This document shows positions 26,676 through 49,278 of a DNA stretch of 64,000 nt, piece after piece. Position 1 is the stretch's first letter; each line of letters opens with the position of its first letter. Both the position numbers and the translations under genes were made by a program. Source of the DNA: Streptomyces sp. F001 (GTDB lineage: Bacteria > Actinomycetota > Actinomycetes > Streptomycetales > Streptomycetaceae); assembly GCF_004187715.1 (NCBI RefSeq), contig NZ_QZWF01000001.1, forward strand, positions 620,001-684,000, written 5' to 3'. Below the pieces are notes generated by a model. It saw nothing but the letters and a program-made list of their open reading frames with translations, ran no database searches and was not told the origin of the DNA.

Positions 26676-27003
26676 GTGGGGTCATTGTCCGGTCACGACA
26701 GCTCCGGTCCCGCTCGGGTCGTCGTCGGCGTGAGCGGTTCCCTGGGGAGCCTGACCGCTCTCACGCTGCCCACGAGGCCCGGCGCCGAGGTGCCGAGCTG
26801 TGGCCGGTGCCGGCCTGGGAGCCGCCCGGCGGGGAGTTCGCCGGAGGTCGGTCCCAGCCGCCGTGCGGGCTGGTCGACCAGTGGCAGGAGCCGGCCCGGG
26901 AGCGGCTGCTCACCGCGCTCGGGGACGTCTTCGGCGAACGGGGCCCCGGGGCCGCGATGTGGGCGCTGGTGGCGCGCAGCACGCCGGGCCGGGTCCTGGT
27001 CGA
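26676..27003 (+). pseudogene. Universal stress protein gene fragment, frameshifted and 3'-truncated
   Basis: SGHDSSGPARVVVGVSGSLGSLTAL is the start of a UspA-type domain with its VGVSGS nucleotide-binding strand. After about 26763 the reading moves by one frame to AAHEARRRGAELWPVPAWEPPGGE, then ERLLTALGDVFGERGPG and ALVARSTPGRVLVE. There the similarity stops at about 27003, some 40 residues short of the usual end, so the C-terminal GxxG-type nucleotide loop is gone. It abuts truncated kdpD on the opposite strand. Such proteins bind ATP or respond to stress, and this one should not fold completely. Confidence 0.75.
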
Positions 27004-29155
27004 GGTGGACCATGGGAAGGGTCTCCGGGATGTCGAGATCCACGCTGCCCTCCGGCACGCCCCCGAGGGCCATGGGCACCACCTCGTCGAGGTCGATCTC
27101 GCGGATGATCGGCGTGACCGTGCCGGTCTGCAGGCGGGACATGTCGAGCAGGTTGCCGACCAGGTGGTCGAGGCGGTCGGCGCCCTCCTCGATCGCCTCC
27201 AGCAGGGCCGCCCGGTCCTCCTCGGACCACTCGACGTCGTCCGAACGCAGCGACGTGACCGACGCCTTGATGCCGGCCAGGGGCGTCCGCAGGTCATGGC
27301 TGACGGCGGCCAGCAGGGCCGTGCGGATGCGGTTGCCCTCGGCCAGCGTGCGGGCCCGGTCGGCCTCCTCCTGGAGCCGGCGGCGGTCCAGGACGACCAC
27401 GGCCTGCGCGGCGAACGCGGCCAGCACCCGGCGGTCCTCGGCGGGCAGCACCCGCCCGGTCAGTGCCAGGGCCATGTGGTCGCCGACCGGCATGTCGACG
27501 TCCGCGTCCTCCGGGCTCTGACACGGCCGGAGCCCGACGCTGCCCGCGCACGTCCACGGATCGACGTCGCTCTCACGCTCCAGCAGCGCCACCGACTCCA
27601 TGCCGAAGGTCTCGCGCACCCGCTCCAGCAGCGCCTCCAGGCTGGTCTCACCGCGCAGCACGTTGCCCGCCAGGAACGACAGGATCCCCGACTCCGCCCG
27701 CAGACGGGCCGCCTGATGCGTCCGCCGGGCCGCGAGGTCGACCACCGACGCCACCGACACCGCCACGCCTATGAAGATCACCAGGGCGACGATGTTCTTC
27801 GGGTCCGCGATGGTCAGCCGGTGCAGCGGCGGGGTGAAGAAGTAGTTGAGCAGAAACGTTCCGAAGGCCGCCGCGGCGAGCGCCGGGTAGAGCCCGCCGA
27901 GCAGGGCCGCCGCCACCGTCAGCGTCAGGAAGAGCAGCATGTCGTTGGCGAGGCCGAGGTGAACGGTGTTCAGCAGGACCGCCAGGACCACCGGCCCGGC
28001 CAGGCCGACCAGCCAGCCCCAGATGATCCGGGCCCGCCCCAGCCGTGCACCGCGCGCCACCGGCAGCCCACGCCCCTTGGCGGCCTCGTCGTGCGTGACG
28101 ATGTGGACGTCCAGGTCGGGACCGGACTCCCGGGCGACCGTCGCCCCCACACCCGGCCCGAACACGTACTGCCAGCTCTTGCGCCGCGACGAACCCAGCA
28201 CGATCTGGGTGGCGTTCACGCCGCGGGCGAAGTCCAGCAGGGCCGCCGGTATGTCGTCGCCGACCACGTGATGGAAGGTCCCGCCGAGGTCCTCGACCAG
28301 CGTGCGCTGCACCGCCAGTTCCTTCGGCGAGGCGGACGTGAGCCCGTCGCTGCGCGCTATGTAGACCGCCAGCACCTCACCGCCGGCCCCCTTCTCCGCC
28401 AGCCGCGCCGCCCGCCGGATCAGCGTCCGCCCCTCCGGACCACCCGTCAGACCCACCACGATCCGCTCCCGACCCCAGATCCTCGACACCCGGTGATCAC
28501 TGCGGTACTGCTTCAGATACTCGTCGACCCGGTCCGCCACCCAGAGCAGCGCCAGCTCCCGCAACGCGGTGAGATTCCCCGGCCGGAAGTAGTTCGACAG
28601 CGCCGCATCCACCTTGTCCGGCTGGTAGATGTTGCCGTGCGCCATCCGCCGCCGCAGCGCCTGCGGCGACATGTCCACCAGCTCGACCTGATCCGCCCGC
28701 ACCACCTCGTCCGGGACGGTCTCCCGCTGCCGTACCCCCGTGATCGACTCCACCACATCACCAAGGGACTCCAGATGCTGGATGTTCACCGTCGAGATCA
28801 CATCGATCCCCGCCGCCAGCAGCTCCTCCACGTCCTGGAAGCGCTTGGCATGGCGCGAACCGGGGACGTTCGTGTGCGCCAGCTCGTCCACCAGCGCCAC
28901 CTTCGGCCGCCGGGCGAGGACCGCCTCCACATCCATCTCCGTGAACACCCCGCCCCGGTACCCGAACTCCCTGCGCGGCACCTGCTCCAGCCCGTGCAGC
29001 ATCACCTCGGTGCGCGGCCGGCCATGGGACTCCACGAACGCCACCACACAGTCCGTGCCCCGCTCCACCCGCCGGTGCGCCTCGGACAACATCGCGTACG
29101 TCTTGCCCACCCCCGGTGCCGCACCCAGGTAGATCCGAAGCTTGCCGCGTGCCAT
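26693..29155 (-). CDS. kdpD: KdpD sensor kinase lacking its ATP-binding domain
   Basis: KdpD is the K+/turgor sensor kinase that phosphorylates KdpE. From ATG 29155 it shows the KdpD N-terminal domain (YLGAAPGVGKTYAM Walker A; DELAHTNVPGSRHAKR), a UspA-like domain, four transmembrane helices from about residue 360 (DUF4118), a GAF-like stretch and the HisKA box AVSHDLRTPLAGI. Authentic sequence stops at LPMVH at about 27004. The N, G1, F and G2 boxes of HATPase_c are absent. The frame continues for about 104 codons through the antisense of the universal stress gene to a stop at 26693. The product should bind DNA-damage-independent signals but cannot autophosphorylate. It begins 2 bp after kdpE's stop. 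Confidence 0.88.
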   Translation of the reverse strand: MARGKLRIYLGAAPGVGKTYAMLSEAHRRVERGTDCVVAFVESHGRPRTEVMLHGLEQVPRREFGYRGGVFTEMDVEAVLARRPKVALVDELAHTNVPGSRHAKRFQDVEELLAAGIDVISTVNIQHLESLGDVVESITGVRQRETVPDEVVRADQVELVDMSPQALRRRMAHGNIYQPDKVDAALSNYFRPGNLTALRELALLWVADRVDEYLKQYRSDHRVSRIWGRERIVVGLTGGPEGRTLIRRAARLAEKGAGGEVLAVYIARSDGLTSASPKELAVQRTLVEDLGGTFHHVVGDDIPAALLDFARGVNATQIVLGSSRRKSWQYVFGPGVGATVARESGPDLDVHIVTHDEAAKGRGLPVARGARLGRARIIWGWLVGLAGPVVLAVLLNTVHLGLANDMLLFLTLTVAAALLGGLYPALAAAAFGTFLLNYFFTPPLHRLTIADPKNIVALVIFIGVAVSVASVVDLAARRTHQAARLRAESGILSFLAGNVLRGETSLEALLERVRETFGMESVALLERESDVDPWTCAGSVGLRPCQSPEDADVDMPVGDHMALALTGRVLPAEDRRVLAAFAAQAVVVLDRRRLQEEADRARTLAEGNRIRTALLAAVSHDLRTPLAGIKASVTSLRSDDVEWSEEDRAALLEAIEEGADRLDHLVGNLLDMSRLQTGTVTPIIREIDLDEVVPMALGGVPEGSVDLDIPETLPMVHLDQDPARRAARHQRPHRGPGAPFAEDVPERGEQPLPGRLLPLVDQPARRLGPTSGELPAGRLPGRHRPQLGTSAPGLVGSVRAVRLPREPLTPTTTRAGPELS

Positions 29156-29157
29156 GT

Positions 29158-29841
29158 TCACCCTTCGAAGCGGTAACCCATGCCGGGTTCTGTGATGAGG
29201 TAACGGGGATGCGACGGGTCCGCTTCCAGCTTGCGCCGCAGTTGGGCCATGTAAACCCGCAGGTAGTTGGTCTTGTTGCGCTGTGAAACCCCCCAGACGT
29301 CCTGGAGAAGCTGCTTCTGCGTGATCAGCCGGCCGGGGTTGGTGACCAGCAGCTCCAGCAGATGCCATTCGGTCGGTGTGAGACGTACGTCGTGTCCGTC
29401 CCGGACGACCTTCTTGGCGAGCAGGTCGATGGTGAATTCGTCCGTCTCCACCAGGGTCATCTCGGGGGCGAGCGGGATCTCCTCGGTGCGGCGGACGGCT
29501 GCCCGCAGCCGGGCCATCAGCTCGTCCATGCTGAACGGTTTGGTGACGTAGTCGTCGGCCCCCGCGTCCAGGGCGGCGACCTTCTCGTCGGACGCCTGAC
29601 GGGCCGACAGCACGAGGATCGGGACGCGGGTCCAGCCCCGTAGCGCCTTGATCACGTCGACGCCGTCCATGTCGGGCAGCCCGAGGTCGAGCATCACGAC
29701 GTCGGGCTGGCGGGCGGCCGCCAGGCGCAGGGCGGTGGCGCCGTCGAGGGCGGCGTCCACTCCGTACCGGCGTGCCTGCATGTTGATCACGAGAGCCCGG
29801 ACGAGCTGCGGGTCGTCCTCCACCACCAGCACCCGGGTCAT
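29158..29841 (-). CDS. kdpE: KdpE response regulator
   Basis: A 227-residue OmpR/PhoB-family regulator. The receiver domain has VLVVEDDPQ, the phospho-acceptor Asp in DVVMLDLGLPD and the KPF switch Lys (VTKPFSMDE). The C-terminal winged helix reads VRLTPTEWHLLELLVTNPGRLITQKQLLQDVWG and YLRVYMAQLRRKLE. The ATG at 29841 is chosen because the receiver starts there; a longer reading has no site. It lies between kdpC and kdpD on the same strand, and kdpD starts 2 bp after its stop. Family members bind direct repeats with 11-bp spacing. Such repeats precede the kdp operon and neighbouring genes. Confidence 0.93.
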   Translation of the reverse strand: MTRVLVVEDDPQLVRALVINMQARRYGVDAALDGATALRLAAARQPDVVMLDLGLPDMDGVDVIKALRGWTRVPILVLSARQASDEKVAALDAGADDYVTKPFSMDELMARLRAAVRRTEEIPLAPEMTLVETDEFTIDLLAKKVVRDGHDVRLTPTEWHLLELLVTNPGRLITQKQLLQDVWGVSQRNKTNYLRVYMAQLRRKLEADPSHPRYLITEPGMGYRFEG

Positions 29842-29973
29842 GGTGCGCGCCTTTCGTGTCGTCGTATGTGTTGTCATGGGCGCCGGCACAACCGGCTTCA
29901 CGACGGCGGGAGTCGGCGGAACCGGGATGTCGTCCCGGTTCCGCCGACTCCCGCTCGGGTCCCGGTAACGCCA

Positions 29974-30642
29974 TCAGCTCTTCGCCACGAGTTCCTTGAG
30001 CGCGATGTTGAGTTCGAGGACGTTCACACGGGGCTCGCCGATGAAGCCGAGGGTGCGGCCCTCGGTGTGCTCGTCGACGAGCTTCTGGACCTCGGCGACG
30101 GGCAGACCGTTCTGCTCGGCGATCCGGTGCACCTGGAGATCGGCGTACTGCGGGGAGATGTCCGGGTCCAGGCCGGAGCCGGAGGAGGTGACCGCGTCGG
30201 CGGGCACCTCGGAGGGCTTGACGGTGTATCCGAGGACCGAGTTGTCCTTGACGACGGCGGCCTTGGCGTCCTTCACCCACTGGATGAGCTCGGGGTTGTC
30301 GCCGGACCGGTTGGTCGCGCCGGACAGGATGAGCTTGTACTGGGTGTTGACGCTGTTGGTGCCGAGGCCGTTCTGCGGGCGGCCCTGGAACCACTTCAGG
30401 TCCGGCTCCGGGGTCTCCTGGCCCTTCTTCAGCGGCAGGTGGTACGCCTGCCCGGTCAGGGACGAGCCGACGACCTTGCCGTCCGCCCTGATCTCCGAGC
30501 CGTTCGCCTTGTTGTTGAACAGACCCTGGGCGATGCCGGTGACGGCCAACGGATAGATGACGCCCGTCACCAGGGTCAGGACGAGGAGGGCGCGCAGGCC
30601 CGCCCCGAGCAACCGGGCGGTGTTGGTAACCGAGTTGTTCAT
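29974..30642 (-). CDS. kdpC: Potassium-transporting ATPase subunit C
   Basis: KdpC is the single-span accessory subunit that stabilises the KdpFABC complex and raises ATP affinity. The 222-residue protein has one N-terminal membrane helix (LRALLVLTLVTGVIYPLAVTGIAQ), then an extracytoplasmic domain with the family text FQGRPQNGLGTNSVNTQYKLILSGATNRSG, GSGLDPDISPQYADLQVHRIAEQNGLP and GEPRVNVLELN. The ATG at 30642 is used; a TTG start overlapping the kdpB stop is possible. It lies 5 bp after kdpB. Confidence 0.95.
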   Translation of the reverse strand: MNNSVTNTARLLGAGLRALLVLTLVTGVIYPLAVTGIAQGLFNNKANGSEIRADGKVVGSSLTGQAYHLPLKKGQETPEPDLKWFQGRPQNGLGTNSVNTQYKLILSGATNRSGDNPELIQWVKDAKAAVVKDNSVLGYTVKPSEVPADAVTSSGSGLDPDISPQYADLQVHRIAEQNGLPVAEVQKLVDEHTEGRTLGFIGEPRVNVLELNIALKELVAKS

Positions 30643-30647
30643 GGCGG

Positions 30648-32780
30648 TCAACCGATTCCGGGTATGAGGGAGATGAGCAGGTCGATGATCTTGATGCCGA
30701 CGAAGGGCGCTATCAGTCCGCCGAGACCGTAGATCGCGAGGTTGCGGCGGAGCATCCGGTCGGCGCTGACCGGCCGGTACTGCACGCCCTTCAGGGCGAG
30801 CGGCACCAGCGCGATGATGATCAGCGCGTTGAAGATGACGGCCGAGAGGATCGCGGAGTCCGGCGAGGACAGCTGCATGATGTTGAGCTTGTCCAGGCCC
30901 GGGTGGACGGCCGCGAACAGCGCCGGGATGATCGCGAAGTACTTCGCGACGTCGTTGGCGATGGAGAACGTCGTGAGCGCGCCCCGGGTGATGAGGAGCT
31001 GCTTGCCGATCTCGACGATCTCGATGAGCTTGGTCGGGTTGGAGTCGAGGTCGACCATGTTGCCGGCCTCCTTGGCGGCCGACGTACCGGTGTTCATCGC
31101 CACGCCGACGTCCGCCTGGGCCAGAGCCGGGGCGTCGTTGGTGCCGTCACCGGTCATCGCGACCAGCTTGCCGCCCGCCTGCTCCCGCTTGATCAGCGCC
31201 ATCTTGTCCTCGGGAGTGGCCTCCGCGAGGAAGTCGTCGACACCGGCCTCCTCGGCGATCGCCTTCGCCGTGAGCGGGTTGTCACCCGTGATCATGACGG
31301 TCTTGATGCCCATGCGGCGCAGTTCCTCGAACCGCTCGCGCATACCGTCCTTGACGACGTCCTTGAGGTGGATGACGCCCAGGATCCGGGCCCCGGCGCT
31401 GTCCTCGACGGCCACCAGGAGCGGCGTACCGCCTGCCTCGGAGATCGTGTCGGCGAGCGTGTCCGCGTCCTCGGCGACCGCGCCGCCGCGCTCCTCAACC
31501 CAGGTGATCACCGAACCGGCCGCGCCCTTGCGGATCTTCCGGCCGTCGACGTCCACACCCGACATGCGGGTCTGGGCGGTGAACTCGATCCACTCGGCGC
31601 CGGCCAACTCGCCCTGGTGACGCTCGCGCAGCCCGTACTTCTCCTTCGCCAGGACGACGATGGAGCGGCCCTCGGGCGTCTCGTCGGCCAGCGACGACAG
31701 CTGGGCGGCGTCCGCGACCTCGGCCTCGGTCGTGCCGCGCACCGGTACGAACTCGGCGGCCTGCCGGTTGCCGAGCGTGATGGTGCCGGTCTTGTCCAGC
31801 AGCAGCGTGGAGACGTCACCGGCGGCCTCGACCGCACGCCCCGACATGGCCAGCACGTTGCGCTGCACCAGCCGGTCCATGCCCGCGATGCCGATTGCGG
31901 AGAGCAGCGCGCCGATCGTCGTCGGGATGAGGCAGACCAGCAGGGCGACCAGCACGACCATCGTCAGATGGGTGCCCGCGTAGTCGGCGAACGGCGGCAG
32001 GGTCGCCACCGCGAGGAGAAAGACGATCGTGAGGGACGCCAGCAGGATGTTCAGCGCGATCTCGTTCGGCGTCTTCTGCCGCGCGGCGCCCTCGACGAGG
32101 CCGATCATCCGGTCGATGAAGGTCTCGCCCGGCTTCGTCGTGATCTTGATGACGATCCGGTCGGAGAGGACCTTCGTACCGCCGGTGACCGCACTGCGGT
32201 CGCCGCCGGACTCACGGATGACCGGCGCCGACTCACCGGTGATCGCCGACTCGTCGACGCTCGCCACACCCTCGACGACGTCACCGTCGCCGGGGATGAT
32301 GTCGCCGGCCTCGCAGACGACCAGGTCACCGATCCTCAGCTCGGTGCCCGGCACCCGCTCCTCACGGCCCTCGACGAGCCGCCGGGCGACGGTGTCCGTC
32401 TTGGCCCTGCGCAGAGTGTCGGCCTGGGCCTTGCCGCGCCCCTCGGCGACCGCCTCCGCCAGGTTGGCGAAGATCACCGTCAGCCACAGCCAGGCGCTGA
32501 TCGTCCAGCCGAACCAGTCGCCCGGGTCCGTGAAGGAGAAGACGGTGGTCAGGACGGAGCCGATCCACACCACGAACATCACGGGCGACTTGACCATCAC
32601 CCGCGGGTCGAGCTTGCGGAAGGCGTCCGGCAGCGACTTGACCAGCTGCTTGGGGTCGAAGAGGCCCGCGCCGACACGGCCCTCGGGGGACTTGTGCCCG
32701 GTGGGTACGTCGCTGTGCGGCGCCCGGGTCGGAGTGGCTGTGGACATGGAGTCCTCTTGATTCGCTGTACGAGTGGTCAT
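30648..32780 (-). CDS. kdpB: Potassium-transporting P-type ATPase, catalytic subunit B
   Basis: KdpB hydrolyses ATP to drive high-affinity K+ uptake through KdpA. The 710-residue protein has the actuator TGES loop (AITGESAPV), the phosphorylation site [13 protein letters not shown], the ATP-binding TGDNPLTA and hinge [16 protein letters not shown], and about seven membrane helices. The start ATG (32780) overlaps the kdpA stop (TGATG) and has GAGGGG eight bases upstream. A later ATG at 32747 also has a usable site. The regulatory Ser of the TGES region is present, as in other KdpB. Confidence 0.97.
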
Positions 32781-34441
32781 CACGCCAGCCCCTCGGCCAG
32801 CGGCCCGAGCGCGAGGGCCGGGAAGTACGTCAGACCGGTGATGATCAGGATCGCGCCTACCAGCAGGCCGGTGAACAGCGGCTTCTCGGTGCGCAGGGTG
32901 CCTGCGGTGACCGGCACCGGCTTCTGCTCGCCGAGCGAGCCGGCGAGGGCCAGCACGAACACCATCGGCACGAAACGACCGAGCAGCATCGCGATGCCGA
33001 GCGTGCTGTTGAACCACTGCGTGTCCGCGTTCAGACCGGCGAAGGCCGAGCCGTTGTTGTTCGAGGCGGACGTGTAGGCGTACAGGATCTCGGAGAAGCC
33101 GTGCGCCCCGCCGTTGGTCATGGAGTTGGCCGGGGTCGGAAGGGCCATGGCGGCGGCGGTCAGGACCAGCACCAGCGCCGGCGTGACCAGGATGTAACAG
33201 GCCGCCAGTTTGATCTCGCGGGTGCCGATCTTCTTGCCCAGGTACTCGGGCGTCCGGCCGACCATCAGACCGGCGATGAAGACCGCGATGATCGCCATGA
33301 TCAGGATGCCGTAGAGGCCGGAGCCGACACCACCGGGCGCGATCTCGCCCAGCATCATGCCGAGCAGGGTGATGCCACCGCCGAGGCCGGTGTACGAGGA
33401 GTGGAAGGAGTCCACGGCACCGGTGGAGGTGAGCGTGGTCGACACCGCGAAGATCGACGAGGCACCGATGCCGAAGCGGACCTCCTTGCCCTCCATCGAG
33501 GCGCCGGCGATCTCGAACGCCGGGGCGCGGTGGGCGAACTCGGTCCACCACATCAGACCGATGAAGGCGACCCAGATGGTGGCCATGGTGGCGAGGATCG
33601 CGTAGCCCTGCTTGACCGAGCCGACCAGCACGCCGAAGGTGCGCGGCAGCGAGAACGGGATGGCGAGCAGCAGGAAGATCTCGAAGAGGTTCGTGAACGG
33701 GGTCGGGTTCTCGAAGGGGTGGGCGCTGTTGGCGTTGAAGTAGCCGCCGCCGTTGGTGCCCAGCTCCTTGATGGCCTCCTGCGATGCGACCGCGCCGCCG
33801 TTCCACTCCTGCGAGCCGCCCATGAACTGGCCAACCTCGTGGATACCGGAGAAGTTCTGGATGGCGCCGCAGGCGACCAGCACGATCGCGGCGACGAACG
33901 CCAGCGGCAGCAGGATGCGGGTGACGCCACGCACCATGTCCGCCCAGAAGTTCCCGAGCTCACCGGAGCGCGACCGCGCGAAGCCCCGGACGAGAGCCAC
34001 GGCGACGGCGATGCCGACGGCCGCGGAGACGAAGTTCTGCACAGCCAGACCGGCGGTCTGCACGACGTGGCCCATGGCCTGTTCGCCGTAGTACGACTGC
34101 CAGTTGGTGTTGGTGACGAAGGACACGGCGGTGTTGAACGCCTGGTCCGGGTCGATCGAGGAGAAGCCGAGCGAACCGGGCAGAACGCCCTGGAGCCGCT
34201 GCAGCAGGTAGAGAAAGAGAACTCCGACCGCCGAGAAGGCGAGGACACCGCGCAGGTACGCGGTCCAGCGCATCTCGGTGTCGGGGTTGGCACCGATGCC
34301 CTTGTAGATCCACTTCTCGACGCCCCAGTGCTTGTCGGAGGAGTAGACCTTGGCCATGTAGTTGCCAAGGGGGACGTGGATGATCGCCAGCGCGCCTATG
34401 AGGGCGAGCAGTTGGAGGACGCCGGCAAATACGGGACCCAT
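32780..34441 (-). CDS. kdpA: Potassium-transporting ATPase subunit A
   Basis: KdpA is the K+-selective membrane subunit, related to Trk/Ktr channels. The 553-residue protein shows the four P-loop filter regions: [38 protein letters not shown] and [10 protein letters not shown]. The remainder is ten or more membrane helices. Length matches the family (about 555). The start ATG is 9 bp after the kdpF stop, and the stop overlaps the kdpB start. It appears fully intact, unlike neighbouring kdpD. Confidence 0.97.
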
Positions 34442-34449
34442 GTCGGTAC

Positions 34450-34539
34450 TCAGAACCTCTCCGGGAAGATCAGGGCGAGGACGAGATAGCCCAGCAGGGC
34501 GACGGCCACGATCAGGCCGACGACGTTTTCGGCGGTCAC
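34450..34539 (-). CDS. kdpF: KdpF small membrane subunit
   Basis: A 29-residue protein: [20 protein letters not shown] followed by LALIFPERF, one transmembrane helix. KdpF stabilises the KdpABC complex. It starts at a GTG overlapping the stop of the upstream 27-aa gene by four bases (GTGA) and ends 8 bp before kdpA. Its length and ending are canonical, in contrast to the extended copy at 24262-24474. Confidence 0.92.
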
Positions 34540-34619
34540 AGCTTCGTCACCCCCTTGGCAACGAGGGCCACCAGCGCGAAGAGCGCGATCGTGGTGACAA
34601 CGAAGGCCAGATCGGCCAT
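34536..34619 (-). CDS. 27-residue membrane peptide gene heading the kdp operon
   Basis: An open frame [20 protein letters not shown] ending AKGVTKL encodes one transmembrane helix with a Lys-rich tail. GGAG lies six bases before the ATG, and the stop overlaps the kdpF start (GTGA), so kdpF translation should depend on it. Peptides like this occur ahead of kdpF in other actinobacteria (from memory). A role as an additional KdpFABC subunit or leader peptide is inferred. Confidence 0.78.
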
Positions 34620-34697
34620 CGTGAGCTCCTGGAGTCGAGGTTCGGTTGGACAAGGACGTTTAGAGGAAACCGCGTCTGTGGCTGGATTCGACCGTCA

Positions 34698-34748
34698 TTG
34701 ACGGCTCCCTTACGGGACACTGCGCGGCTTTGACGGGACTCTTACGGG
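34698..34748. promoter_or_regulatory. Phased 11-bp repeats upstream of the kdp operon (candidate KdpE sites)
   Basis: On the minus strand, toward kdp, the sequence reads CCCGTAAGAGT then CCCGTCAAAGC (34748 to about 34727), and again CCCGTAAGGGA then GCCGTCAA (34716 to 34698). Within each pair the units repeat at 11 bp, and the pairs are in helical register. They lie 80-130 bp before the first start codon, the usual place for OmpR-family activator sites. The same unit occurs before the neighbouring permease genes. Confidence 0.6.
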
Positions 34749-34761
34749 CACCCTTCGAATG

Positions 34762-36603
34762 TCAGGTCAGCCGGAACCGCAAGCGGCAGATCACCGCGTC
34801 GGTGTCCCGGCGCAGGGCGTGCGCGACGACGGCGCCGCGCTGGTTCTGCAGCACCCGCTGCCAGAGCCGCTCCGGCTCGGTCTCCGGGATGAGCACGGTG
34901 ATCTGGGTGCCCGGCTCCGCCACGGTGACGTCTCGGACGTAATCGGCTATCGGCCGGCCCAGGGTGCGGCGCTCGGAGGTCAGCTTGACCAGTGGCACGC
35001 CGGGGTCCCACTCGGCCCAGGCGCGCTCGAGGGCATGCAGCTGAGCCCGGTCCTCGGGGTCGGGGTAGCAGACGGTGACCGCACGGACCTCGTCGCCCAG
35101 GGAGGCGGCGGCCGTCAGGGCCTGGGAGGTGAGCCGGGACAGGGAGGATACGGGCACGATCACGACCGAGCGGTCACGGTGCGGGGCCTCGGGGATGTGG
35201 CCGAGGCCCAGCCGCTCGCCGATCCGGACGTAGGCCCGGTGCACGGTCTGGAAGGCCACGACCAGCAGGGGCAGGGCGATCACGATCAGCCAGGCGCCCT
35301 CCTCGAACTTGGTCGCCGTGACGACGACGGCCGAGACACCGGTCAGCAGCCCGCCGAAGCCGTTGAGTACGGCCTTGCCCCGCCAGCCCGGCCCGCGTTG
35401 CTCGCGCCAGTGCCGGACCATGCCCACCTGGGCGATGGTGAAGCCGACGAAGACGCCGATGGCGAACAGCGGCACGAGGGTGTTGGTGTCGCCGCCGGAG
35501 AAGAGCAGCAGGGCGGCGGAGACCAAAGCGAGCGCGAGTACGCCGTGCCGGTGGACCTGGCGGTCGGCCTTGAGGGCGAAGACGTGCGGCAGGTAGTTGT
35601 CGCGGGCGAGCAGCTTCAGCAGCACGGGGAGGCCGCCGAAGGAGGTGTTCGCGGACAGGGCGAGCAGGATCATCGTGGCGAACTGGACGACGTAGAAGGC
35701 CCAGTTGTGGCCGAGCGAGGCGTCCGCGAGCTGGGCGAGGACGGTGACGCCCTCGACCGGCTGGAGGTGGAAGCGGGAGATCAGTACCGACAGGCCGATC
35801 AGCATGACGCCGAGCACGGCGCCGAGGGCGACCTCCGCGCGCTGGGCGCGCTTGACGCGTGGTACCCGGAAGGAGGGGACAGCGTTGGCGATGGCCTCGA
35901 CGCCGGTCAGCGCGCTGCATCCGGAGGCGAAGGCCTTGAGCAGCAGCAGGGCGCCCACGGTGGTGGCGTTGTCGGCCAGGGCCGAGGCGTGTCCCTGCGC
36001 GGTGACAGTGCTGACCGGTTCGGACCGGAAGAGCCCGACGCCGATCAGGACGAAGATCGAGCCGACGAAGATCACGGTCGGCACGATGAACGCCTTCGCC
36101 GACTCCACGATGCCGCGCAGGTTGACCACCGTGATCAGCGCGAGCACCACCAGGCACAGCCACAGCCGCTCGTCGTGGAGCGCCGGGAAGGCGGAGGTCA
36201 GGGCGGCCACACCGGCGGTGACGGCGACGGCCACGTTGAGGACGTAGTCCAGGACGAGCGAGGCCGCGGCGACCAGGCTGGTGCGTGCACCCAGGTGGCG
36301 CTTGGCCACGGCGTACGAACCACCGCCGTCCGGGAAGGCGGCGATCACCTGGCGGTACGAGGCGACCAGCACTGCCAGCAGGCCCGCGATGGCCAGCGTG
36401 ACCGGGAGCGTGAAGCCGAGGCCGTGCGCACCGGCGGCGGCCAGCACGAGCACGATCGCCTCGGGCCCGTACGCCACCGACGCCATCGCGTCCAGCGACA
36501 GCGCGGCCAGGCCGGTGACGGCGGTGAGGCGATGCCGCTCACCGGTATCGGGCGGCTCCTCGTCGGCAGGGACGGCGCCCGGTGCGGCGGTCAGTACGGA
36601 CAT
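34762..36603 (-). CDS. APC-family permease, KimA-like, with cytoplasmic UspA-like tail
   Basis: A 613-residue membrane protein with about twelve helices from residue 25 (LTAVTGLAALSLDAMASVAYGPEAIVLVLAAAG) to about 450. A soluble domain follows, beginning RSVVIVPVSSLSRLTSQALTAAASLGDEVRAVTV. That arrangement and length match KimA (YdaO), a K+ importer of the APC superfamily. The alternative is an amino acid permease. Position next to kdp and shared 11-bp repeats favour a role in potassium. AAGGAG is nine bases before the ATG. The leader carries a long hairpin (36634-36659). Confidence 0.82.
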   Translation of the reverse strand: MSVLTAAPGAVPADEEPPDTGERHRLTAVTGLAALSLDAMASVAYGPEAIVLVLAAAGAHGLGFTLPVTLAIAGLLAVLVASYRQVIAAFPDGGGSYAVAKRHLGARTSLVAAASLVLDYVLNVAVAVTAGVAALTSAFPALHDERLWLCLVVLALITVVNLRGIVESAKAFIVPTVIFVGSIFVLIGVGLFRSEPVSTVTAQGHASALADNATTVGALLLLKAFASGCSALTGVEAIANAVPSFRVPRVKRAQRAEVALGAVLGVMLIGLSVLISRFHLQPVEGVTVLAQLADASLGHNWAFYVVQFATMILLALSANTSFGGLPVLLKLLARDNYLPHVFALKADRQVHRHGVLALALVSAALLLFSGGDTNTLVPLFAIGVFVGFTIAQVGMVRHWREQRGPGWRGKAVLNGFGGLLTGVSAVVVTATKFEEGAWLIVIALPLLVVAFQTVHRAYVRIGERLGLGHIPEAPHRDRSVVIVPVSSLSRLTSQALTAAASLGDEVRAVTVCYPDPEDRAQLHALERAWAEWDPGVPLVKLTSERRTLGRPIADYVRDVTVAEPGTQITVLIPETEPERLWQRVLQNQRGAVVAHALRRDTDAVICRLRFRLT

Positions 36604-36633
36604 GGATGGGTGCTCCTTCGTACGGTGTGAACG

Positions 36634-36659
36634 ACCGCGCAGGGCCTGCCCTGCGCGGT
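36634..36659 (-). promoter_or_regulatory. Long hairpin in the permease leader
   Basis: ACCGCGCAGGGC pairs perfectly with GCCCTGCGCGGT, leaving a tiny loop, 31 bp before the permease ATG. It lies between the repeat elements and the start codon, so it would be in the mRNA leader. It could be an attenuator or a stability element. No match to the c-di-AMP riboswitch was recognised. Confidence 0.5.
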
Positions 36660-36731
36660 GCACCCAGGTTCTGTCCGGATCCGGCCGCCTTCGACTGTTC
36701 CTTGCGCGTTCTTCGCGCCGATCCAGCCGAC

Positions 36732-36826
36732 TTTGACGAGACTTTGACAGGGCACGCGGACCGCTCAGGGCCCCGCTGGGACGGCGTCAAGAATCGACCG
36801 GGCACTCGTCAGAGTCCCGTCAAGCA
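36732..36826. promoter_or_regulatory. Phased 11-bp repeats in a divergent promoter (candidate KdpE sites)
   Basis: Toward the minus-strand permease the sequence reads CTGTCAAAGTC then TCGTCAAAGTC (36752-36732), units 11 bp apart. Toward the plus-strand gene at 36865 it reads GGCGTCAAGAA (36783), one unit without match, CTCGTCAGAGT (36805) and CCCGTCAAGCA (36816), all in one 11-bp register. The unit is the same as upstream of kdp. The region is a shared divergent promoter. Confidence 0.6.
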
Positions 36827-36864
36827 AAGTCGACATGGCTCACCCGGTCTCTAGCGTCGGCGGT

Positions 36865-37422
36865 ATGGAGCCCCCCGACGACGTGCGACACGATCTCTCC
36901 CCCGCACCGGAACGGCACTTCGACGCAGAGGCGTACGACCACCGCTGGACACGGGACCTGCACAGCGCGGTCCGCTGCGCGGCCGTACTCCTGGCCCTGC
37001 TGCTCCTCATCGACTGGGGCGCCGGCACCCTCACCCCATGGCGCACCGCCCTGTGGTGCATCCTCGCGGCGCTGCTCTTCGTGGTGCTGTGTCCGCCCCG
37101 CGTCTCGGCGGGCGCCGGCTGGCTGCAGTCGCGTTCGCTGCTGCGCACGCGGACCGTCCGCACCGACCTGCTGGTGTCGGTCCGCTGCCTGGACGGCGTC
37201 TCCCAGCGGCTGGTGCTGCGCGACACGTTCGGCGAGCGCGTCGAGATCGACCCCCAGGTCCTCGTCGCCAACCCCGAACTGTGGTACCGCCTCGACGAGG
37301 ATGCGCACAAATCGGAGGCGCGCGGGTTGCTGCTGTGCGGGGCGACCGCGCTGAACCGCGTGGCGGAGCGGATCGACTGCGAGACCGCGCGGACGGTGTT
37401 CAGGGTGTCGGGGCTCGAATAA
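36865..37422 (+). CDS. Conserved membrane protein with two helices and a soluble C-terminal domain
   Basis: A 185-residue protein from ATG 36865 (MEPPDDVRHDLSP). An earlier ATG at 36835 would add ten residues. Two adjacent helices (VRCAAVLLALLLLIDWGAG and RTALWCILAALLFVVLCPP) are followed by a cytoplasmic domain (VRTDLLVSVRCLDGVSQRLVLRDTFGERVEIDPQVLVANPELWYRL) that looks like a small beta-rich PH-like module. It is divergent from the KimA-like permease and shares the 11-bp repeat promoter, so it probably belongs to the same potassium regulon. Function unknown. Confidence 0.78.
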   Translation: MEPPDDVRHDLSPAPERHFDAEAYDHRWTRDLHSAVRCAAVLLALLLLIDWGAGTLTPWRTALWCILAALLFVVLCPPRVSAGAGWLQSRSLLRTRTVRTDLLVSVRCLDGVSQRLVLRDTFGERVEIDPQVLVANPELWYRLDEDAHKSEARGLLLCGATALNRVAERIDCETARTVFRVSGLE

Positions 37423-37535
37423 CCCCGAGTAGCTCCAACAGCCCCGGTGGCGCTTGGCTTCAGCCCCGCCGATCCGGCGGATCGGGCTGCACGCCGCCGG
37501 TCATCAGGATGTCCGGACCACCCGGTTCCCCGCCC

Positions 37536-37865
37536 TCAGCTCCCGCCCCTGCGGCGGCCGCCGGTCGAAGCCCGGCGAGGCTGTCGTTCGACTGAGCCCG
37601 ACCGCCGCCGCAGCCCCGGCCACCGGCCTCTGGCAGGTGGAGAGTTGACATCCCGTCGGTCACGAAAGGCCGGTCCCCGTACGTTCCGTCTCCCCGCCCC
37701 GGCCGGCTCGGCCAGCGGCAGTGAGACGACCATGGTCAGCCCGCCGCCGGGGGTGTCCTCGGGGGTGAGGGTGCCACTCATCGCTTCGGTGAGGCCCCGA
37801 GCCAGAGCAAGGCCCAGACCGAGCCCCGTGGTGTTGTCGGTGTCACCGAGCCGCTGAAAGGGCTC
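37536..37865 (-). pseudogene. C-terminal remnant of a KdpD-type histidine kinase
   Basis: The frame EPFQRLGDTDNTTGLGLGLALARGLTEAM, then EDTPGGGLTMVVSLPLAE, is the F/G2-box end of a KdpD HATPase domain. It starts abruptly at 37865 against an SDR fragment on the other strand, so the rest of this kinase copy is missing. After LPLAEPAGAG the frame runs on into Arg-rich text to a stop at 37536, suggesting the natural stop was lost by indel. It is exactly the piece missing from kdpD at 27004, apart from about 60 residues absent from both. Confidence 0.75.
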
Positions 37866-38460
37866 GCCTCGACGAGGTCGAGACCCTCGCCCACCGGGTG
37901 GTCGCCGAGCACCCGCACCTCGACGTGCTCATCAACAACGCGGGCATGGCCGCGCCGGAGCGGCACACTGTCACCGCCGACGGCAACGAGATCGCCTTCC
38001 AGGTCAACTTCCTGGCCCACTATCTGCTGACCTGCCTGCTGGAACCGGCACTCACCAGCGACCCGGGCGGCCGCGTGGTCAACGTGTCCTCCTCCCTGCA
38101 CCGCACGGCGTCCATCCAATGGGCCGACCCGAACCGCGCCCGCCGCTACTCCCGGCTCGCCGCCCACGCCCAGTCCCGGCTGGCCCTGACGGTGTTCGCG
38201 GCCGACCCCCGCGTCACGGCGGTGTCGGTGCACCCCGGCGTCTGCGACACGGCCCTGCTCCCGCTCTACGCCCACGAGGGCGCCTCCGCGGCCGAGGCGC
38301 GGCGCACGTGGTGCGGCTGTGCGACCCGACCGTCGAGATCGTCAACGGCGCCTACTACGACCGCGCCGAGCGCGTCGACCCGGCCCCAGCCGCCACCGAG
38401 GACCGCACGGTCGAGCGCCTTAACAAGCTCGCCGACCTTCTCGTGGGCCGCAGCGCTTGA
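37866..38460 (+). pseudogene. SDR gene fragment, 5'-truncated and frameshifted
   Basis: Coding text starts RLDEVETLAHRVVAEHPHLDVLINNAGMAAPERHTV, lacking about 70 N-terminal residues including the cofactor-binding GxxxGxG. It continues QVNFLAHYLLTCLLEPAL, NVSSSLHRTASIQW and the active-site Tyr/Lys region, which here reads ARRYSRLAAHAQSRLA. Lys of YxxxK is replaced by Ala. Near 38297 the frame changes from EGASAAEA to AAHVVRLCDPTVEIVNGAYYDRAERV, which reaches the stop at 38460. Two independent lesions plus the altered YxxxK indicate a non-functional gene. Confidence 0.78.
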
Positions 38461-38491
38461 AGTCCGTGTCAGAGAAAGGAAGTTGACGTAC

Positions 38492-38550
38492 ATGTCGAAG
38501 CGCGCCCCAAGAAGAAGGCGAACCACGGCAACAAGGCCGGTCAGCGCTGA
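38492..38550 (+). pseudogene. Very small basic protein gene with a one-base deletion
   Basis: ATG TCG AAG CGC opens a frame with AAGGAAG upstream. One base later the second part reads PKKKANHGNKAGQR and a TGA, giving a 19-residue Lys-rich protein if one base were added near 38505. As written the frame overruns. The KKKANHG text resembles short conserved Streptomyces proteins of unknown function. It has the size of a true gene, so the frame break is more likely an indel than chance. Confidence 0.5.
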
Positions 38551-38645
38551 GTCACGCGCCGAAAGCTGTCCACCGGGGCGGGTGAGAAGGAGCGCGGCGC
38601 TCCCGATCACCCGACCCGCCCGTATCACCCACCCGTGAGGCGTCG

Positions 38646-39418
38646 ATGATCGAACTCTCTCCCCGTCACCTGCCCACCCTGACCCGCTGGTTCCCCGCGG
38701 GCACCCCGGCGCCGCCATCGGCGAGCATGTGCTGGCGACCGACGTCGGACGCTGGCGGGCCGACCGCGTCCTCCAGCCGCGAGCCGTCGCGGCGTCGTGT
38801 GCCGGCCATGTCGTCCTGCGCGGGTCCCCCGACCTGCTCACGCCCGAGGTCCTGGCGCCACTGGCGGGCAGCCGGATCGACGCCCCCGCTCGCTTCCTGC
38901 CGGCACTGGGTGCGGCCTTCGAACGGCTCATCCCCTGGGAACGCATGGTCTGGACCCGGCAGGCCGAGCCGCAGCCCGCCCCGGTGCCGTTCGGCGTGAC
39001 CGTACGCCGCCTGGAGCCGGCGGACACCGACGCCGTGCACGACCTCGGCCTGGACGCCTCGTGGCTCTCCGCCACCTGGGGCGGCCCGGCCGGACTCGCC
39101 ATGTCCGGTCACGCCTGGGCGGCCACGGCCAGGAACGGCCGCCTCCTGGCCGTCGCCTGCACCTACTTCCGCGGCACGGCGTACGAGGACGTGGCGGTCT
39201 TCACCGTGCCGGACCACCGCCGTCACCGCCTCGCCCTGGCCTGCGTCATCGCCCTCTGCGACGACATCGCGGCCCGCGGCCGCACCCCCAGCTGGAACTG
39301 CTCGGTCCTCAACCGCGCCAGTCGCCTCCTCGCCCGGACGGCGGGCTTCCGCCTGATCCGCGAGTACGTCCACTACGCCGTCGGCAGCCCGGTCTCCCAC
39401 GACCGGCTCAACGCATGA
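38646..39418 (+). pseudogene. GNAT acetyltransferase gene, frameshift near the N-terminus
   Basis: ATG 38646 begins MIELSPRHLPTLTRWFPAGTP. At a C-rich run near 38709 the coding text moves to another frame (GEHVLATDVGRWRADRVLQPRAVAA) and continues to the stop at 39418. The C-terminal part has a GNAT fold: VTVRRLEPADTDAVHDLG, AVFTVPDHRRHRLALACVIALCDDIAARG (acetyl-CoA loop) and LLARTAGFRLIREYVHYAVG. One inserted base would restore about 257 residues. The stop codon overlaps an ATG of the next frame. Confidence 0.75.
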
Positions 39419-39447
39419 ACCCACCCCCACGGGAAAGACAGCCCTCG

Positions 39448-39807
39448 ATGCCCAGGTCACCACTCCTCACCCTCCTGATCCTGAACGATCGCCACGAACT
39501 GGCGATCACCCGGCTGAAAGGGGCCGACGACTCCTTCACCCTCCACTACACGATCACGCCCGCGCTGCCCGACTCCGACAGCGGTACGCCCCTGCTCCCG
39601 GTTCTGTCCGCCGAGGACGATCTGGGCAACGCGTACGAGGACCGGGGCGGCGCCTACGGCCCGAGCCAGGACGGCACCCGCACCCACGGCTCACTCACCG
39701 CCCACCCCGCCCTCGCCCCCGGCACGACCGCCCTCCGGATCCGGATCACGTTCCTGCGAAACGGCCAGGAGTCGGCGTACGACATGACACTCGGTGTCCA
39801 CCCCTGA
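39448..39807 (+). CDS. Conserved hypothetical beta-rich protein
   Basis: A 119-residue soluble protein (MPRSPLLTLLILNDRHELAITRLKG). It reads as alternating beta strands (DSFTLHYTITPALPDSDSG, PVLSAEDDLGNAYEDRGGAYG, TALRIRITFLRNGQESAYDM), probably an immunoglobulin-like sandwich with no signal peptide. GGGAAAGA is ten bases before this ATG. An earlier ATG at 39415 overlaps the GNAT stop (ATGA) and could make the two genes coupled. Function unknown. Confidence 0.72.
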   Translation: MPRSPLLTLLILNDRHELAITRLKGADDSFTLHYTITPALPDSDSGTPLLPVLSAEDDLGNAYEDRGGAYGPSQDGTRTHGSLTAHPALAPGTTALRIRITFLRNGQESAYDMTLGVHP

Positions 39808-39903
39808 GTGCGGCTTGCGTTCATCCCCCCATACAGCGCAGTCGGCGCACGGTCATCCCCGAGCTGCGGTCTTGGCGTGCTGCCCACGCCTCAACGCCCT
39901 TTC

Positions 39904-39923
39904 TTAACGGGAACTTGACGTCG
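39904..39923. promoter_or_regulatory. 11-bp repeat pair upstream of the second large permease
   Basis: TTAACGGGAACTTGACGTCG has ACG units 11 bp apart and on the minus strand reads GACGTCAAGTT then CCCGTTAA, matching the kdp repeat unit with the opposite orientation to its gene. It lies about 110-130 bp before the ATG at 40034. Confidence 0.45.
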
Positions 39924-40033: not shown

Positions 40034-41989
40034 ATGGCCACCACCGAGCATCCGCCGCCCAGTCGCCTGCGCGCCTGGATGCTGGAGGGGCTGTCCGACA
40101 TCGGCAAGGGCGGCGGCCCTCAGGGACCCCACGCCCAGCCGGCGCCCCCGCACGAGGGCCAGCCCTGGTACCGGGTGATGTGCCTGACCGGTGTGGACTA
40201 CTTCTCGACCCTCGGCTATCAGCCCGGTATTGCCGCGCTCGCGGCCGGTCTGCTGTCGCCCGTCGCGACCATCGTGCTCGTGATCGTCACCCTGGCGGGC
40301 GCCCTCCCGGTCTACCGGAGGGTGGCCGAGGAGAGCCCGCACGGACAGGGCTCGATCGCGATGCTGGAGCGGCTGCTCACCTTCTGGAAGGGCAAGCTCT
40401 TCGTCCTGACCCTGCTCGGCTTCGCCGCCACCGACTTCCTGATCACCATCACCCTCTCGGCCGCGGACGCCTCGACCCACCTGGTGGAGAACCCGCAGCT
40501 GCACGATGCGCTGCACGACAAGCAGCTGCTGATCACCCTCGTGCTCATCGCGCTGCTCGGCGCGGTGTTCCTCAAGGGATTTCTGGAGGCGATCGGCGTC
40601 GCGGTGGCTCTGGTGGGGGCCTACCTGGCGCTGAACGCCGTCGTCGTGATCGTCGGCCTGTGGCACATCATCACCGAGGGGCATGTCGTCACCGACTGGT
40701 CGAACGCCCTGACCGCCGAGCACGGCAACGTCTTCGTCATGATCGGCATGGCCCTGATCGTCTTCCCGAAGCTCGCCCTGGGCCTGTCCGGCTTCGAGAC
40801 CGGCGTCGCCGTGATGCCGCACGTCAAGGGCGAGGCGGGGGACACCGAAGAGGACCCCAAGGGCCGGATCCGGGGTACCAAGAAGCTGCTCACGACGGCC
40901 GCACTGATCATGAGCGGCTTCCTGATCACGACCAGTTTCATCACCACCCTCCTGATCCCGGAGCAGGAGTTCGAGGAGGGCGGCAAGGCCAACGGCCGCG
41001 CCCTCGCCTATCTGGCGCACGACTACCTGGGCAACGTCTTCGGCACGGTCTACGACGTCTCGACGATCGCCATCCTGTGGTTCGCCGGCGCCTCCGCGAT
41101 GGCCGGACTGCTCAACCTGATGCCCCGCTATCTGCCCCGCTACGGCATGGCCCCGCACTGGGCCCGTGCCGTGCGCCCGATGGTCATCGTCTTCACCCTG
41201 ATCGGCTTCCTGGTCACCTGGATCTTCGACGCCGACGTCGACGCCCAGGGCGGCGCGTACGCCACCGGCGTGCTGGTGCTGATCAGCTCGGCCGCGATCG
41301 CGGTGACCATCGCCGCGCGGAAGGCCGACCAGCGCAACTGGACGATCGCCTTCGCGGTGATCTCGGCGGTGTTCCTCTACACGACGGTCCTGAACATCAT
41401 CGAGCGCCCGGACGGCGTGAAGATCGGCGCCTGCTTCATCGCGGGCATCATGATCCTCTCCCTGGCCTCCCGGCTGGCCCGCGCCTTCGAGCTGCGCGTG
41501 ACCAGCGTGACACTCGACGACATGGCGGAACGATTCGTCCGGGACATCGCCAGCCGCAAAATCCGATTCATCGCAAACGAGCCCGACAAGCGCGACCTCG
41601 CCGAGTACCGCGACAAGATCGAGCAGATCCGCCAGGACAACGACGTCCCCGGCCAGGAGGACTTCGTCTTCGTCGAGGTGACGGTCACCGACCCGTCCGA
41701 GTTCGAGTCCGGTCTGACGGTGCGCGGCGAGGTCATGCACAACCGCTACCGGGTCCTGACGCTGGAGTCCTCCTCCATCTCCAACTCCCTGGCCGCGCTG
41801 CTTCTACACGTCCGCGACACCACCGGCCGCATCCCGCACATCTACTTCGAGTGGACCGAGGGCGACCCCTTCGCCAACTTCCTGCGCTTCTTCCTCTTCG
41901 GCCAGGGCGAGATCGCCCCGGTCACCCGGGAGGTGCTGCGCGCGGCGGAACCGGACCCCGCACGCCGGCCACGCGTGCACACGGGCTGA
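40034..41989 (+). CDS. Large APC-superfamily permease with cytoplasmic C-terminal domain
   Basis: A 651-residue membrane protein. The first helix region is [42 protein letters not shown], followed by about twelve helices to residue 480. Then comes a soluble domain ([34 protein letters not shown]) that is unlike the UspA tail of the KimA-like protein. The N-terminal cytoplasmic stretch is Pro/Gly/His-rich. AGGAG is seven bases before the ATG. Substrate not known; amino acid or cation transport are both possible. The upstream repeat suggests it may be in the same regulon as kdp. Confidence 0.8.
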
Positions 41990-48954: not shown

Positions 48955-49158
48955 CCTCCCCCTCTGTCATCTCAACCTGAGAGCTTCACCGGACCGCCCG
49001 AGGACGCCCGGCTTGCACCGTCGGTGAGAGCGGAAGCCGTCGACACCCGCTCTGCTTTCCAGAGTGACCTCGTCCGTGCGGTACGTGGGCCTGAGAGATT
49101 CCGGGGAGGATTTGCTCCTTCGGCGCCTCCGATGGTGTCCGGAGGACTCTCCCGCACG
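48955..49158 (-). promoter_or_regulatory. Glycine riboswitch, tandem aptamers
   Basis: On the minus strand the leader of gcvP reads GTGCGGGAGAGTCC, then CGCCGAAGGAGCAA and AATCTCTCAGG, then GTCACTCTGGAAAGC: a complete first glycine aptamer. A second unit follows, with GACGGTGCAAGCC, GGTGAAGCTCTCAGGTT and GACAGAGGGGGAGG. The second lacks a clear GGGAGAG opening, reading CCGCTCTCACC instead. Glycine binding normally turns gene expression on. A possible start-site-proximal expression platform overlaps the region 48893-48954. Confidence 0.88.
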
Positions 49159-49278
49159 GGGTCAGCAGCCGTTTGCCAGACTACCAGCGAGGTCAACGCC
49201 CGGGCGTTCGAGTGGCCGCGTGCCTCAATGTGCTCTTTCGTAGTGCTTACGGATGAGTTGCGAGCAAGTGGAGGGCCC

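Follow-up and report, generated by a model that had tools for sequence, protein, structure and literature searches.

Five 22-bp tandem repeats lie upstream of potassium (K+) genes in a 64-kb stretch of the Streptomyces sp. F001 genome (contig NZ_QZWF01000001.1, positions 620,001–684,000; the whole stretch is referred to here as the window). Each repeat consists of two units 11 bp apart with the core CGTCAA-N5-CGTCAA, and the genes downstream are the kdpFABC operon (two pairs), kimA, a gene for a 195-aa membrane protein, and a gene for a 651-aa permease (Table 1). We propose that the pairs are sites for the response regulator KdpE and that they define a Streptomyces K+ regulon with an autoregulated kdpDE operon; binding by KdpE is predicted from sequence, and we put the probability of this reading at about 0.85. 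One switch probably governs these K+ genes together. The original prediction, made from the window sequence before the present comparisons, had proposed a candidate K+ regulon from tandem 11-bp repeats before four transcription units. All five pairs were recovered within 1–3 bases of where it had placed them, and the regulon is supported and larger than it had envisaged.

Tandem repeat pairs in the window

Eleven units from the window itself supplied the score matrix. The five pairs have the top pair scores of the window, 24.6–30.5, with the next best at 15.0; in 40 simulated 64-kb windows preserving the dinucleotide steps of the real one the maximum was 19.2 and none reached 20. Because the matrix came from the very units it scores, each promoter was also scored with its own units left out, giving 24.8 for kimA, 23.8 for the 195-aa gene, 19.8 and 17.5 for kdp, and 16.6 for the permease. 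The held-out sites stand above all background at three of the four promoters, kdp being the exception, where one background match (17.8) falls between the two held-out sites.

The arrangement of the pairs varies between promoters. The two kdp pairs start 32 bp apart, which leaves an inter-pair step of 21 bp and unit starts at 0, 11, 32 and 43; this 11-21-11 layout is conserved in orthologues, and orthologous sites in other genomes match the promoter-proximal pair. The two pairs foreseen at kdp are present, though they do not run on as a single 11-bp ladder. Similarly, the array described as in-register before the 195-aa gene does contain a pair, and the second of its four 11-bp steps has no match. 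The inverted pair before a second large permease was also found, together with its gene, which appears only distantly KimA-like. The consensus over 93 sites is CGTMAR followed by CGTYAA.

We hypothesize that each 22-bp pair would bind a dimer of KdpE, a member of the OmpR/PhoB family, with one subunit on each 11-bp unit, and that at kdp the 11-21-11 array would accommodate two dimers on roughly one face of the DNA. Upon K+ shortage, KdpD would phosphorylate KdpE, and phosphorylated KdpE would bind upstream of, and activate, kdpFABC, kimA, the KimA-like permease gene and the gene of the 195-aa membrane protein.

Conservation upstream of orthologous genes

Orthologous genes were searched with the window-only matrix over 450 bp of upstream sequence, on either strand and at a threshold of 11. 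Nearer homologues were used: 29 kdpA loci (28 from the genus and one from the order), 17 loci of the 195-aa gene (own copies, the second copy in genome G035 and fragments excluded), the eight nearest kimA loci, and 17 permease loci of the genus (second copies excluded). The named near relatives of the kdp locus are Streptomyces, such as S. spinoverrucosus with 96% KdpA identity. Sites were found upstream of kdp in 24 of 29 loci, the 195-aa gene in 15 of 17, kimA in 6 of 8 and the permease in 14 of 17, against means of 0.65, 0.25, 0.35 and 0.3, respectively, for shuffled upstream sequences. In broader sets, scores above 13 were obtained for kdp (21/29), the 195-aa gene (15/18), the permease (16/22) and the kimA family (8/29).

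When the spacing between units was varied, the pair score peaked at 11 bp, the direct-repeat arrangement of a KdpE-type operator. In kdp and the 195-aa gene an extra peak, at 21 bp, reflects the 32-bp offset between the starts of two pairs. Enrichment before kdp and kimA orthologues, a check set beforehand as one on which the candidate regulon could fall, is present with the predicted period. Of the 14 permease orthologues with a site, 13 carry it inverted. In the window, the gene preceding this site reads in the same direction as the permease, so no divergent gene explains the inversion.

Evidence for KdpE as the proposed binder

In Mycobacterium smegmatis, KdpE is described as activating the kdpF promoter, in which it binds a minimal site of 22 bp (PMC5401905). 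This 22-mer scores 17.6 on the window-only matrix in the 11-bp register, a value equalled by one of 20,000 letter shuffles, and 15 of its 22 bases, counted by hand, are identical to those of the upstream kdpF pair. A pattern covering the Streptomyces and M. smegmatis sites occurs in 96 stretches in about 85,000 genomes, of which the 80 listed, with no M. smegmatis record among them, were examined. Among the listed actinobacterial loci, 28 of 37 have the site on the same strand before kdpA (27) or kimA (1, Fodinicola), compared with none of the 43 other listed loci before kdp or kimA. The kdpA loci include three from Mycolicibacterium and one from Mycobacterium sp.; in these four the site is on the kdp strand, 230–276 bp before kdpA. 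Nine listed actinobacterial loci remain. In two (L244 and L294) the site is too near the locus edge to judge; L244, from S. geranii, is in other respects a counterpart of the window. Streptosporangium, Nonomuraea and Planotetraspora have their matches (L296, L302 and L310) within a coding gene that is similar in all three, and these were attributed to chance.

The regulator itself is consistent with this assignment. The window KdpE has the Pfam domains Response_reg and Trans_reg_C, and E. coli KdpE and a chain named only as a DNA-binding response regulator are its closest matches in the Protein Data Bank (PDB); the NCBIfam KdpE model is its best match, at 238.6 bits, below the cut-off of 325. 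The residues R193, R200 and T215, given as DNA contacts of E. coli KdpE (PMC3264566), align with identical residues in the window KdpE in our numbering. The recognition helix TNYLRVYMAQLRRKLE does not vary among 19 distinct copies of KdpE taken from the two types of locus, kdp and core (20 rows were compared, one gene appearing twice). It is nearly the same in three mycobacterial KdpEs, which keep HYLRVYLAQLRRKLE; in six copies from Streptosporangium, Nonomuraea and Planotetraspora, Q replaces its V. In six genomes of another family, kdpE lies about 200 bp after kimA. KdpE had been named as the binder in the original prediction by inference; the M. smegmatis site, the mycobacterial kdp promoters, the contact residues and the sites before kdpDE described below all argue for that assignment at the level of sequence.

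Sites before the core kdpDE operon

A KdpE match at E ≤ 1e-50 is present in 36 of 37 genomes of the genus. In five loci (L130, L201, L203, L204 and L205) a core kdpDE operon, separate from kdpFABC, adjoins trkA genes and a KimA gene. In a set of 20 genomes that we picked, the motif pair precedes core kdpD in 18, mostly about 124 bp (range 89 to 147 bp) from the conserved GKLR start. It is found in all 14 genomes with a kdpA match and in four of the six without one (G013, G021, G026 and G030); in G013 and G026 the permease, too, is preceded by a site. Sites before kdpDE, also in species that lack Kdp, argue for KdpE as the regulator that reads the motif, with a role reaching past Kdp. They suggest that KdpE would control its own synthesis through the core kdpDE site and serve K+ homeostasis in general.

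On contig C9 of the window's genome (L130, 12171–14827), core kdpD is split into two overlapping frames, which reflects either a genuine frameshift or a fault in the assembly. Two genomes in which no KdpE was detected have contigs that break off at the relevant place. In G017, the contig with the core locus stops next to trkA, at the point where kdpDE would be expected. In G059, which has a KimA-like gene with a site and no KdpE found, the contig ends within an open reading frame (ORF) directly downstream of the KimA-like gene that encodes DUF4118 and the start of a HisKA domain.

Genome-wide distribution and the K+/H+ antiporter

An exact pattern, designed after many sites had been inspected, gave 55 matches in 31 of the 37 genus genomes (G001, G002, G008, G017, G028 and G032 were left out), compared with six for the reversed control pattern. 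By our assignment, K+ genes account for 42 of these: a K+/H+ antiporter (12), core kdpD (11), kdpF (10), the permease, the 195-aa gene and kimA (2 each), and core kimA, a second kdpE and a DUF4118 protein of a K+ island (1 each). The other 13 are scattered away from K+ genes, two of them inside predicted genes, one ribosomal-protein-like (L190) and the other in L171. The genome of the window (9.7 Mb in 171 contigs) has 21 matches with at most one mismatch and 11 control matches. Its K+ loci hold all three exact and six of the 18 one-mismatch matches, and the 12 others correspond to the background level; the permease site is not among the matches at this stringency. The search of the genome and its relatives that had been called for thus added sites at the unlinked kdpDE operon and at the antiporter.

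The antiporter matches the NCBIfam potassium/proton antiporter model with 687 bits (cut-off 355). Its site recurs in 27 of the 29 other Streptomyces loci that were examined, adjoins a conserved block, TTAGGTAAGGTAAC, and ends, by eye, 5 bp before a −10-like TAAGGT, which would suit repression. At the other promoters the distance from the end of the array to a −10-like box, also by eye, is about 30 bp (kdpF), 41 bp (permease) and 46 bp (core kdpD), as expected for activation; with the boxes placed by eye, these assignments of sign are a weak guess. A broader reading would make KdpDE a general K+-homeostasis system rather than one dedicated to kdp, whose autoregulated core kdpDE, retained by species without kdpFABC, activates Kdp, KimA, the permease and the 195-aa gene and represses the antiporter. 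We hold it tentatively, at somewhat less than even odds, and lowered our estimate slightly because both genomes without a core site are from species without kdpFABC.

Several further loci carry motif matches. A second K+ island in the window's genome (L112, G000:C3:762000-781900) has six matches above 13 and contains TrkA and TrkH genes, a protein with a KdpD N-terminal domain plus Usp, an extra KdpB, a KimA-like permease, a paralogue of the 195-aa protein, and kdpA, kdpB, kdpC, kdpE and kdpD. Motif-like pairs also precede NfeD-like (our naming) or SPFH (flotillin-type) genes in L366, L365, L163, L376, L380 and L382–L384, and GGCATYAAG...CGTAAAGAT recurs in five of 20 SPFH loci; such genes are a possible, weakly indicated further target. 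In a single genome (G005, L178, 1499–1520), a pair scoring 20.5 lies about 220 bp before the gene of an Mrp-type antiporter subunit.

Alternative explanations

KdpE might bind only the kdp and kdpDE sites, those at the permease and antiporter being promoter elements or sites of a look-alike factor. The reverse complement of the unit, TTGAC, resembles a −35 box, and the inverted permease sites contain TTGACG; the antiporter site adjoins its conserved block and is kept in G017, a genome without a detected KdpE; and a 12-bp spacing also scores, in 9 of 17 permease and 13 of 29 antiporter loci. However, both units stand at the 11-bp spacing in 14 of 17 and 27 of 29 loci, respectively, and the permease sites, by eye, precede a conserved TACGCT by about 40 bp, a distance too great for a −35 box. 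We regard this explanation as unlikely, though it deserves serious weight.

A different OmpR/PhoB-family regulator of K+ genes, for example one responding to osmotic stress, could alternatively read the repeats, with KdpE a mere passenger in the operon. Streptomyces genomes have dozens of response-regulator candidates each (first-look counts), repeats of 11-bp period are described for both E. coli KdpE and M. tuberculosis PhoP, and G017, with KdpE undetected, keeps one site, at the antiporter. Against such a regulator, the 22-mer bound by M. smegmatis KdpE fits the matrix, matching mycobacterial sites occur at kdp, and sites precede kdpDE itself and a second kdpE (L177), which makes this explanation improbable. 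Chance similarity of short repeats in GC-rich DNA, although pairs above 13 arise randomly about 1.2 times per 64 kb and the own-genome matches outside K+ loci (12) approximate the control count (11), is negligible in view of the score gap to background, the spacing peak and the whole-genome control, and is ruled out by the conservation upstream of orthologues.

A number of observations weigh against KdpE as the common regulator of these sites. Five of 29 kdp promoters have no site within 450 bp (L018, L019, L025, L033 and L034); in L034 a site lies about 700 bp upstream of kdpA, beyond the scan. No site was found upstream of kimA orthologues of a neighbouring family that have an adjacent kdpE, and among the five core loci named above, only one has a site before the core KimA gene. 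For the 195-aa gene, the best pair is directed away in 5 of 15 loci and may serve a divergent gene; for the permease, one permuted matrix reached 15 of 22 loci compared with 16 for the real one, a test weakened by the relatedness of the group. The site is not universal before core kdpDE in species without kdpFABC, G002 and G025 being the two genomes that lack it, and G017 retains the antiporter site with KdpE undetected. Finally, unpublished data mentioned in a review describe S. venezuelae KdpDE as dispensable for development and on 0.5 M NaCl or KCl (PMC10117811); its passages on this system do not mention growth of the kdpDE mutant at low K+.

Genes of the locus

Table 1. Candidate operator pairs, potassium genes and other features of the window.
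Feature	Position	Strand	Units or basis	Pair score
kdpD, truncated	26693..29134	-	Pfam KdpD, Usp, DUF4118, HisKA; ATP-binding domain not found	
kdpA, kdpB, kdpC, kdpE	29158..34441 (kdpA 32780-34441; kdpE 29158-29847)	-	ORFs; kdpA orthologues	
kdpF, 27 aa, first gene of the kdp operon	34536..34619	-	translation; named by position and conserved reading frame	
Promoter-proximal KdpE-type pair of kdpF	34695..34716	-	CCCGTAAGGGA GCCGTCAATGA; 75 bases to kdpF start	25.0
Upstream KdpE-type pair of kdpF	34727..34748	-	CCCGTAAGAGT CCCGTCAAAGC; 32 bp from the other pair	26.5
kimA-type K+ transporter gene	34762..36603	-	PDB KimA 6s3k, residues 21-606, E=1.5e-123	
Pair before kimA	36730..36751	-	CCTGTCAAAGT CTCGTCAAAGT; 126 bases to kimA start	30.5 (best in window)
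Array before the 195-aa gene	36783..36826	+	GGCGTCAAGAA at 36783, a poor unit, then CTCGTCAGAGT CCCGTCAAGCA at 36805-36826	26.2 (36805-36826)
195-aa protein gene	36835..37422	+	two predicted membrane-type helices, PH-like barrel	
kdpD C-terminal relic	37710-37865		92% over 52 residues to S. geranii KdpD	
Short-chain-dehydrogenase-like gene	37880-38460		looks broken (by eye)	
Pair before the 651-aa permease, directed away from the gene	39901..39922	-	GACGTCAAGTT CCCGTTAAGAA	24.6
651-aa APC-type permease gene	40034..41989	+	putative distant KimA relative	
Glycine riboswitch	49069-49164	-	Rfam, 69.6 bits	

The 195-aa protein matched no Pfam or NCBIfam family. Its structural model (pLDDT 85.8) has two long helices, and the best fold match is to PH domains at Z 6.9, below 8, which may reflect a common arrangement. 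The 651-aa permease likewise has no Pfam model and no PDB match by phmmer or profile search. Compared with a KimA-family profile it gave an hhalign probability of 96.9 (E=1.7e-10), and the top three Foldseek hits of its model are all KimA; the model is poor (pLDDT 59.6), and the fold match was not relied on alone.

The window kdpD (27000–29156) shares 98.5% identity with its core counterpart on contig C9, compared with 79% for the neighbouring kdpE, a contrast that points to either recent gene conversion or misassembly between the copies. The kdpD relic beyond the 195-aa gene resembles the S. geranii KdpD that is encoded after its 195-aa gene, which suggests that a second kdpD once adjoined the 195-aa gene here. 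Open frames that look similar to the broken dehydrogenase-like gene accompany K+ islands elsewhere. In S. geranii (L244), the kdp promoter, kimA, the 195-aa gene, kdpD and a gene of the Na+/H+-exchanger family are contiguous, with strong pairs before each of kdp, kimA and the 195-aa gene and also in the kdpD–exchanger interval. Fragments of kimA beside kdp (G001:C72, G009:C1:5237878-5238790, G011:C3:412794-413285 and G022:C87:21940-22179), in G009 together with a piece of the 195-aa gene, appear to be decaying remnants of a cluster like the window's. A riboswitch was also considered as a means of controlling the K+ genes and rejected, the only Rfam riboswitch above the gathering threshold in the window being the glycine type at 49 kb.

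Relation to known systems

The PhoP boxes of Streptomyces are 11-bp direct repeats read by a regulator of the same family, with the unit GTTCACC, from which the CGTCAA core differs. The closest likeness is to the KdpE site of M. smegmatis kdpFABC (PMC5401905), an A-rich 22-bp sequence of two 11-bp units before the same operon. That paper describes one site; the term direct repeat is absent from its main text, and, unlike the Streptomyces set, its passages name no site at kimA, kdpDE or an antiporter. The E. coli kdpFABC site (PMC3264566) is described as two 6-bp direct repeats separated by 5 bp, again an 11-bp period, and unlike CGTCAA its unit is T-rich, TTTATA/TTTACA. The type of site and the regulator thus belong to known kinds. 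In the open-access literature we found no KdpE regulon in Streptomyces, no regulon of this breadth, no double array and no KdpDE in Kdp-less species.

A shared operator would tie one regulator to several K+ systems. If our reading is correct, KimA-type uptake would be linked to KdpDE in Streptomyces, and a K+/H+ antiporter and the 195-aa membrane protein would belong to the same regulon. The M. smegmatis KdpE site would then be one case of a wider actinobacterial 11-bp operator.

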